Part shown: positions 36,915 through 39,919 of the stretch, in pieces
Layout: each line of letters begins with the position of its first letter
Numbering within the stretch: position 1 is the first letter of the stretch
NCBI GenBank assembly: GCA_007125545.1
Contig: SLDA01000262.1
Coordinates: forward strand, 1 to 50,269
Length of the DNA stretch: 50,269 nucleotides
Source of the DNA: Thermoflexales bacterium
GTDB taxonomy: Bacteria; Chloroflexota; Anaerolineae; B4-G1; SLSP01
Direction: 5' to 3'
Program-made: the position numbers and the translations under genes
Notes under the pieces: generated by a model
Database searches by the model: none
Seen by the model: only the letters and a program-made list of their open reading frames with translations
Told to the model about the DNA's origin: nothing

Positions 36915-38444
36915 CTACTTAGCATACTCGACGGCGCGTGTCTCCCGGATAACGGTGACTTTGATTTGCCCAGGATATTCCATTGTCTCTTCGATCTTTC
37001 GCGCGACCTCGCGCGAAAGGCGCAGGCTCTCGAGATCATCAATCTCGCCCGGCCGCACGATAATCCGAATCTCGCGTCCAGCCTGAATCGCAAAACTCTC
37101 CTCGACACCGTTGAAGGAACGCGCGATATCTTCCAGGCTGCGAATGCGCTTGATGTAGTGCTCCAGACTCTCGCGGCGTGCGCCGGGCCGTGCACCTGAG
37201 ATCGCGTCAGCCACCTCGACGATGACCGACTCCAACGTCTGCTGTTCGGACTCGTGGTGGTGCGATTCGATACAGTTAACGACGTTAGCCGACACCCCAT
37301 AGCGTCGCGCCAAATCGGCGCCGATAGTTGCGTGGGTGCCCTCAATCTCAAAGTCCACCGCCTTGCCGATGTCGTGCAACAGCCCACCCATTCGTGCGAT
37401 TTCCGAGTTGGCACCGATTTCGGCCGCGAGCAAGCTAGACAGCTTGGCAACTTCGATCGCGTGCCCCAACTGATTTTGTCCGTAACTAGTACGGAAGTAG
37501 AGCCGCCCCAACAGCTTCATCAACTCCGGATGAAGATTGGGCACTTCAGCTTCGTAGACTGCGTGCTCAGCCTGCTCGCGCATGATCAGATCGACTTCCT
37601 TCTGGGCCTTCTCCAACACCTTCTCAATGCGCGCCGGATGGATGCGACCATCCGAAACAAGATAATGCATAGCTCGGGCGGCAGCCTCACGACGCACCGG
37701 ATTGAACGACGAAATCGTAATCAGTTCGGGTGTATCGTCGACAATGACATCCACACCCGCCTTCTGCTCGAAGACACGAATGTTGCGGCCTCCACGACCA
37801 ATGATCCGCCCCTTGAGCTCGTCACTGGGGATCTCTAGCGTCTTAGTTGTCAGCTCGGCAACCGGTTCGGATGCCAAACGCTGTATCGCTGTAATGATGA
37901 TTTCGCGAGCGCGCTGATCCGAAGTCTCGCGCGCACGTAACTCCTCTTCACGAATCACACGCGCCATGTCCTGACGTGTGTCCTGTGCAACCTGCTCCAA
38001 AACCACCTCGCGCGCCTCTTCGGTCGTCAGGTTAGCAATAGCCTGAAGCTCCGCCTGCCGCTGTTCCTCGACCTGCTCCAACTGATTCCACCGCTTGTCC
38101 ATGGTGCTCTGACGCTTATTGAGCTGCTGTTCGCGATTATCGATGCGCTCTTGTCGCGCATCGACCTGCTCCCGGCGCTTCTGAAGGCGGTCTTCCTCGC
38201 GACGCAACTTCTGATTACGCGTCTCCATCTCACCCTCAAGCTCTTCGCGAATTCTGATTGCATCGTCTTTGGCGTTCAGTACGATGTCGCGGGCTTGCTT
38301 CTCCGCTTCCTCCAGCAGGCGGGTGCGCATAGCTTCTAGATTACCCAACTCTTCCTGGAAGCGCTGCTGGCGGTACAAGTACCCTAGTACCCCACCTGCG
38401 GCCAATCCGATGATTAAAGCAATGACACTAATCAACCATTCCAT
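36915..38444 (-). CDS. rny: Ribonuclease Y
   Basis: A membrane-anchored endoribonuclease that starts mRNA decay. The 509-residue protein has an N-terminal membrane helix (residues 3-23), a long coiled coil (about 25-200), a KH domain with IIGRGGRNIRVFEQ, and an HD phosphohydrolase domain with GGLLHDIGKAVD. Length is typical (about 520). SD GGGGGAGG lies 5 nt before the ATG. The start lies 17 bp inside the recX end, so the two genes form one unit, an order often seen in Gram-positive-like genomes. Confidence 0.97.
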   Translation of the reverse strand: MEWLISVIALIIGLAAGGVLGYLYRQQRFQEELGNLEAMRTRLLEEAEKQARDIVLNAKDDAIRIREELEGEMETRNQKLRREEDRLQKRREQVDARQERIDNREQQLNKRQSTMDKRWNQLEQVEEQRQAELQAIANLTTEEAREVVLEQVAQDTRQDMARVIREEELRARETSDQRAREIIITAIQRLASEPVAELTTKTLEIPSDELKGRIIGRGGRNIRVFEQKAGVDVIVDDTPELITISSFNPVRREAAARAMHYLVSDGRIHPARIEKVLEKAQKEVDLIMREQAEHAVYEAEVPNLHPELMKLLGRLYFRTSYGQNQLGHAIEVAKLSSLLAAEIGANSEIARMGGLLHDIGKAVDFEIEGTHATIGADLARRYGVSANVVNCIESHHHESEQQTLESVIVEVADAISGARPGARRESLEHYIKRIRSLEDIARSFNGVEESFAIQAGREIRIIVRPGEIDDLESLRLSREVARKIEETMEYPGQIKVTVIRETRAVEYAK

Positions 38445-39090
38445 TCAAACCTCCCCCGCTAAGTCCGTCGTTTAGTTGTGGGAATTCCTGAGAAGCGAGA
38501 GTCTCCTGGATGAGTTCGTACGGGAAGCCACGCCGGGCCAGTCGCTGAAAGAGTCGCCGGCGGCATTCGTCCGGCGGAAGGTGCTGGAGACGCCGCAGTT
38601 GCTGCTGCGCAGCGGCACGTACAGCGGCCTCCTCATCATACTCATTCAGTGCATCTTCTATTGCATTCGAAGATAGGCCCTTCTGCCGTAACTCGTATTG
38701 GAGCATGCGCTTGCCCCTAGGTCGGAACCGGGCGCGGTTATCGCGCCAGTAACGAGCAAAGGCAGCATCGTCGATTAACCCAGCGTCCTCCAAACGAGTT
38801 ATTACTTCTGTCACGACAGCCTCAGGAAATTCCTTCTCATCCAGATAACCGCGCAGCTCAGCTTCGCTGCGCGGCCGATAAGAAAGGTAGTCCAGAGCTC
38901 TGCCGTGCGCGCGCTCTAGCCCATCCGCAGCCTTCAACTCGGCGATGATCTCGTCCGACAGCCACTCCCCTACCTTGAGCTTCATGGCAACGAACCCGGC
39001 CAAGCCGAAAGCGAATTCATCATCCAGGTAAACACTCACTCGATCCTTGGACCGCTTCTGCGGTTCCAAGGACGTAACTGTACCGGCCAT
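38428..39090 (-). CDS. recX: Regulatory protein RecX
   Basis: A modulator of RecA filaments, 220 residues, mostly helical repeats. Typical segments are ALDYLSYRPRSEAELRGYL, VITRLEDAGLIDDAAFARYW and RGKRMLQYELRQKGLS. SD AAGGAA precedes the ATG. recA is not in the window. A terminator-like hairpin with a T run lies 22 nt upstream of the start codon, and the gene overlaps rny by 17 bp. Confidence 0.93.
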   Translation of the reverse strand: MAGTVTSLEPQKRSKDRVSVYLDDEFAFGLAGFVAMKLKVGEWLSDEIIAELKAADGLERAHGRALDYLSYRPRSEAELRGYLDEKEFPEAVVTEVITRLEDAGLIDDAAFARYWRDNRARFRPRGKRMLQYELRQKGLSSNAIEDALNEYDEEAAVRAAAQQQLRRLQHLPPDECRRRLFQRLARRGFPYELIQETLASQEFPQLNDGLSGGGLNGMVD

Positions 39091-39111
39091 CTTGTTCCTT
39101 CGGTTAGACGC

Positions 39112-39145
39112 AAAAAACGGCTAGGGCAGTGCACCCATAGCCGTT
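39112..39145 (-). terminator. Intrinsic terminator in the recX leader
   Basis: On the minus strand AACGGCTA-tGGG pairs with CCC-TAGCCGTT around a 7-nt loop, followed by a run of six T. The T run ends 22 nt before the recX ATG, so this element controls recX-rny or ends a small RNA transcribed from farther upstream. Confidence 0.75.
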
Positions 39146-39660
39146 GATCAACTAGGCTTAGACATGCCCAAGGATTCCGGCTTAACGGATATCCCTTGGC
39201 GCTTCTCGCATATACCTGGCTCGATCGCCAATGCGGCTATCGCCAAGTCTTCTATGTCAGAGCCATCTCGATTGTCATTAACACAACTGTAGGTTGCCCT
39301 ACAGTATGTGATACGCACAACAGCTAGCGCACCTACCGTACATCAGCCGCGTCTCGCCGGTCATTCACCGGATCGAGAACTCACAAGAGCGCCAGGAATT
39401 AGATTGAACGGAACTGTCAGCATCTGCTCCATCTTGAGTTCTACTGCAACCCAAGCTCCAATCATTCCTACGTAAAACACCCGAACGCTCGCGTCATTTC
39501 TAACTTATCTTAACTTCACCTATTTTACACTACTCTACAATAAAAGGAAGTCGGCAAAGACACTTGTACGAATCGCGTTTGCCGCGTGATGAACCCCTCT
39601 GCCGAAGCTTCCACGGCTTGGATACCAGAGGGCGCCGGGTTCGTAGGAAGCGTTTTATGC
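39146..39660. other. Intergenic region with a possible structured recX leader
   Basis: I see no coding gene here. On the minus strand, 39204-39155 can form a long hairpin (CCAAGG...CCTTGG enclosing TCCG/CGGA). ATAGCCG at 39240-39234 is complementary to CGGCTAT, the 5' arm of the downstream terminator. I cannot match it to a known riboswitch, RNase P, tmRNA, SRP RNA or 6S consensus from memory. The part beyond 39300 shows nothing. Confidence 0.45.
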
Positions 39661-39688
39661 TTGTCAATCCGATCCTTTTGTGTATAAT
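39661..39688 (+). promoter_or_regulatory. Promoter of tRNA-Thr
   Basis: TTGTCA (5/6), a 16-nt spacer and a perfect TATAAT, 41 nt before the mature tRNA 5' end. Confidence 0.75.
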
Positions 39689-39729: not shown

Positions 39730-39802
39730 GCCACCCTAGCTCAATCGGCAGAGCAGACGCTTCGTAAGCGCCAGGTTCTGGGTTCGATTCCCAGGGGTGG
39801 CT
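39730..39802 (+). tRNA. tRNA-Thr (anticodon CGU)
   Basis: A complete cloverleaf: acceptor GCCACCC/GGGTGGC, D stem GCTC/GAGC with an 8-nt loop, anticodon loop TTCGTAA, variable AGGTT, T stem CTGGG/CCCAG with loop TTCGATT, discriminator T. CCA is not encoded. The anticodon stem (GACGC/GCGCC) has one A-C mismatch at positions 28-42. It reads ACG codons. Confidence 0.95.
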
Positions 39803-39894
39803 CTCAGGAAACACCGCGAGACGAAAACTGAGGCTCGCCCCCACGTGTTGGGGTGTGTATGAAACATCGCCAGATCGTGCACGAGTATGGCACC

Positions 39895-39919
39895 AGCCCC
39901 GATCTATCGGGGCTTTTTT
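39895..39919 (+). terminator. Terminator downstream of tRNA-Thr
   Basis: AGCCCCGAT paired with ATCGGGGCT, then six T. It lies 92 nt after the tRNA; the stretch between contains a second small hairpin (CCCCCAC/GTTGGGG) and no gene that I can name. Confidence 0.85.

Follow-up and report, generated by a model that had tools for sequence, protein, structure and literature searches.

A candidate transcription attenuator upstream of recX-rny in Anaerolineae, probably descended from a recA-recX terminator

A terminator hairpin lies directly upstream of recX and rny in the window (i.e. the whole stretch of 50,269 nucleotides that was analysed), and its stem sequence recurs before recX across the class Anaerolineae. 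The element most probably works as an attenuator or partial terminator rather than as a metabolite riboswitch, and it probably limits the amounts of RecX and RNase Y. A more specific reading, in which it descended from a recA-recX terminator, attenuates transcription of recX-rny and, in the window's family, acts together with an antiterminator helix, is given about an even chance of being correct. No description of the recX-rny leader was found in the literature.

On the minus strand upstream of recX, the sequence reads AACGGCTATGGG-TGCACTG-CCCTAGCCGTTTTTTG. The stem (39145-39117) pairs a 5' arm beginning at 39145, AACGGCTA(T)GGG, with the 3' arm CCCTAGCCGTT (39126-39117) around the loop TGCACTG, and contains one bulged U. 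It runs into a U-tract of six T (39117-39112) whose end is 22 nt from the recX ATG at 39090. The combination typical of an intrinsic terminator, a G+C-rich hairpin with a U-tract immediately after it, is present at 39145-39112 as in most relatives, so that the terminator described in an earlier note on this DNA is confirmed at the level of sequence. A terminator scan of the window did not list the recX-leader hairpin, probably because of the bulge. Terminator and leader are present as a single copy in their own genome. The stretch that links the U-tract to the start codon of recX (39091-39111, minus strand) carries a Shine-Dalgarno-like GAAGGAA, and a purine-rich GGA-type site is retained between hairpin and start in family relatives.

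The recombination regulator gene recX (38428-39090, minus strand) was recognized by NCBIfam RecX models with E-values down to 2e-41, without reaching their curated cut-offs, and rny, encoding ribonuclease Y (36915-38444, minus strand), by TIGR03319, whose cut-off of 454 bits is well exceeded by its score of 640.9 bits. The two genes overlap by 17 nt, and in Anaerolineae rny follows directly 3' of recX at almost all loci with sufficient flanking sequence. Upstream, the first gene is a tRNA-Thr(CGT) in divergent orientation (39730-39803, plus strand), an arrangement shared with sister species L007 and L008; the terminator is therefore not the end of a co-directional upstream gene. A strong sigma-70-like promoter match (11/12; 39661-39688, plus strand) faces the tRNA-Thr gene, and a sigma-70 scan found no promoter on the minus strand. 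The tRNA gene is itself followed by a terminator (39895-39914, plus strand) with a GCCCCG stem that is also kept within the genus (L007 and L008), so conservation of a stem at genus level is, on its own, unremarkable.

Folding of the 170-nt leader is more stable than that of its shuffles (z ~ -2.9), and there are hairpins around and between the terminator and an upstream segment, ATAGCCG, which is considered below (CTTGGCG..CGCCAAG and CCAAGGGAT..AATCCTTGG). Further upstream, the hairpin ACTGTAGG-GCAA-CCTACAGT (39286-39305, minus strand) recurs in four species of the genus, whose stems differ by wobble changes and by a double change from A-U to G-C, and its conservation suggests a transcript start upstream of 39305. 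By inspection, this inverted repeat was rejected as a LexA-type operator, having a spacing unlike CTGT-N8-ACAG that varies among species, as well as wobble pairs.

Conservation of the terminator was examined through RecX searches of 99 related genomes and of named GTDB genomes from Anaerolineae and Chloroflexota, for which recX upstream regions were collected. The core GC-Y-R-TGG(C) was found in the best hairpin near recX at 62 of 91 loci, nearly all from Anaerolineae, a count inflated by relatedness among genomes that are mostly metagenome assemblies. As these 62 loci were picked by the 5'-arm core pattern, constancy of their outermost pairs is partly selection; the inner pairs vary in relatives on either strand of the stem, by exchanges of the kinds A-T/G-C and T-A/C-G. 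The core hairpin lies within a few tens of nucleotides of the recX start (for the window's family, the distance to the start codon is 13-41 nt) and is usually followed by T-rich sequence, although the U-tract is poor in several relatives (L016, L017 and L029). A scan of 98 genomes with the core pattern returned few copies per genome, many at recX and others scattered; on these grounds, and given the one leader copy in the window's own genome, a generic repeat or common terminator sequence was rejected. For a terminator, it is unusual that the stem sequence itself is conserved throughout a class.

Other arrangements were also met. Two related genomes with short recA-recX gaps (L095 and L098) are without the hairpin. 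One Anaerolineae family (L109-L119) and two single-contig genomes of about 1.5 Mb from another class (L130 and L134) have hairpins before recX with other stems (CACAGCCGAGGC..GCCTCGGCTGTG and GGGGCTGAGGC..GTCTCGGCTTT). Hairpins with T-runs just before recX but with different stems were found in several other groups of the phylum, and it seems that the device of a hairpin before recX is phylum-wide while its stem differs.

The gene order of relatives points to the origin of the element. In 51 genomes, all outside the window's family, a co-directional recA precedes recX at a distance of at most 0.9 kb (one further genome has 5.8 kb), so that the hairpin region is there intergenic between recA and recX. 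In the window's family the arrangement is different, recA being on another contig in 22 of 22 members with a recX match. Because recA stands directly upstream in those 51 relatives, the element is most simply explained as a descendant of a recA-recX intergenic terminator. In the family, recA 3' flanks have unrelated hairpins or none and differ among genera, and a hairpin belonging to recA itself was rejected there. The hairpin thus stayed with recX and not with recA, which argues that it acts on recX-rny. Joint control of RecX and RNase Y by the leader terminator, as put forward in the earlier note, is well supported by comparison, since the hairpin is class-wide, was kept with recX after the loss of recA and has a divergent tRNA-Thr gene upstream.

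A precedent exists in E. coli, where a terminator between recA and recX lets 5-10% of recA mRNA read through (Pages et al. 2003, as related in PMC6662834). The two systems share a terminator directly before recX, expression of recX by read-through (predicted here) and, in the 51 relatives, the gene order. They differ in that recA of the window's family is elsewhere and the terminator stands in a free-standing leader, in the presence of rny after recX, in the class-wide conservation of the stem sequence and in the complementary upstream strand of the family. If the proposed descent is correct, the E. coli-type recA-recX terminator would be an old control device that outlasted separation of the genes and that determines, in addition, how much is made of RNase Y, one of the main enzymes of mRNA decay. 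The family would then provide a natural experiment separating two roles of a terminator, ending recA and limiting recX.

The earlier note had seen an antiterminator layout in which CGGCTAT of the terminator 5' arm (39143-39137) is matched by an upstream complement, ATAGCCG (39234-39240, minus strand). This complement is present and exact, lies about 91 nt away and is the best contiguous 5'-arm complement in the upstream leader of the window; however, it does not stand out from dinucleotide shuffles (p = 0.25), is not kept in three sister species in the genus alignment and is probably incidental. The layout itself gained moderate support at family level, but with another strand, CTAGCTGTTG (39318-39327, minus strand), which can pair over 9 bp, including one G-U, with CAACGGCTA of the 5' arm. 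In a MAFFT alignment made without use of complementarity, this candidate antiterminator strand (39327-39318) was aligned with GCTGTAGCTGTTG (L008), GCGCTGTTG (L007) and TATAGCTGTAG (L009).

Enrichment of such strands was assessed from the best contiguous helix that the 5' arm can form with leader sequence upstream of it, relative to dinucleotide shuffles; this test was used in place of an earlier energy-based duplex test with bulges, which was too noisy. Upstream complements to the 5' arm were commoner than in shuffles over 11 genera of the window's family (Stouffer p = 0.0006) and in a second family (p = 0.019), the p-values given here coming from tests chosen after the data had been inspected. 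The family complements are clustered about 125-205 nt upstream. A control with the terminator 3' arm against family leaders gave no signal (z = -0.45), and no excess of complements to the 5' arm was seen at 20 other loci or in a third family from the order. As the complementary strand is absent from that third family and from the rest of the class, it does not account for conservation of the stem sequence.

An unbiased search for 10-mers in the family leaders ranked GCTATAGCCG and AGCTGTAGCC at the top, both corresponding to the antiterminator strand, and 2 of 200 shuffles scored as high. In ensembles of partial transcripts cut after the 5' arm, the arm was paired with the antiterminator strand in most family members; for the window, it favoured a different partner, located about 37 nt upstream. 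The long-range helix has two double compensatory changes when genera g11 and g2 are compared, an outcome matched by 17 of 500 shuffles and based on few events. Covariation in relatives, which the earlier note had named as a check, was thus found for the terminator stem and weakly for the antiterminator helix, but not for ATAGCCG. The antiterminator is accordingly proposed for the family as a whole and is weak in the window's own genome.

Under the preferred reading, i.e. an attenuator descended from the recA-recX terminator, RNA polymerase that initiates upstream of the leader would run into the hairpin with its U-tract, 22 nt ahead of recX. A large fraction of the transcripts would stop at the U-tract, and read-through would yield the recX-rny mRNA. 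In the family, the strand about 125-205 nt upstream would pair with the 5' arm once this is made and before the 3' arm appears, so favouring read-through, presumably in response to some trigger. Antiterminator/terminator attenuators and the expression platforms of riboswitches form a general class of elements with switching folds. The leader resembles these in that two mutually exclusive pairings are possible for the 5' arm of the terminator in the window's family; unlike in known attenuators, no sensor domain, ligand, leader peptide or protein is assigned here, and the evidence for switching is comparative.

The strongest competitor, appreciably less probable than the preferred reading, is a constitutive partial terminator that keeps RecX and RNase Y low relative to the promoter, as in E. 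coli, with no switching and with the upstream strand as a by-product. Conservation of the terminator well beyond the families with a complementary strand, the hairpins with T-runs before recX in other groups of the phylum and the E. coli recA-recX precedent (PMC6662834) all fit this account. It would, however, require another cause for the enrichment of the strand in the family and for its top rank among leader words, and the family leaders are long and structured.

Alternatively, the main role of the hairpin could be in setting mRNA stability, as a site at which RNase Y or another RNA-binding protein binds or processes the transcript, with termination being secondary. Such a site would suit a stem whose sequence is conserved beyond pairing and which has a poor U-tract in some members, and in B. 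subtilis the rny transcript with its 5' UTR is a cleavage target of RNase Y itself (PMC10303841). In most members, however, the U-tract comes right after the stem, which is needless for binding, and this explanation is judged quite improbable. The B. subtilis system resembles the outcome proposed here, in that rny would be controlled through its own transcript, 5' UTR included, but differs in its means, which are cleavage of the rny transcript there and a terminator here. Autogenous control by RNase Y is no more than a hypothesis drawn from this analogy. An extended version, somewhat less doubtful than a binding or processing site but still unlikely, would be a class-wide family of Anaerolineae recX-rny attenuators whose sequence-conserved hairpin lets RNase Y (or RecX) sense its own abundance, with a long-range antiterminator where linkage to recA was lost.

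A long folded segment with a terminator at its end could also be an independent small RNA gene, recX being expressed by read-through or from its own promoter. This is very unlikely: the leader sequence is poorly conserved among genera, has no match in Rfam and keeps a short distance between hairpin and recX start. Searches with Rfam 15 at the gathering score returned only tRNAs, and nothing credible was found in the leader at a permissive threshold or at recX in 18 relatives. A strongly conserved aptamer core was also sought by a word search of the family leaders, which gave only the antiterminator strand, slightly above shuffles. The ligand-binding riboswitch that the earlier note had considered, with no Rfam match, no conserved core common to genera and no metabolic gene context, is not upheld. 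A metabolite riboswitch with a leader aptamer and the terminator as its expression platform is the least probable reading of all, as the sole inter-genus leader word above shuffles is the antiterminator strand, recX-rny is not metabolic and neither the window's genome nor the 98-genome pattern scan showed the leader at a second locus, against which stands only that one genus and a neighbour could form a long helix enclosing a multi-branched domain.

Folding of mixed-genus alignments with RNAalifold gave no reliable fold for the whole leader. A second common word, TCTCTTAGCC, was seen in family leaders (e.g. L020 and L027); it is complementary to GGTTAAGAG further downstream, and the two may form an internal helix.
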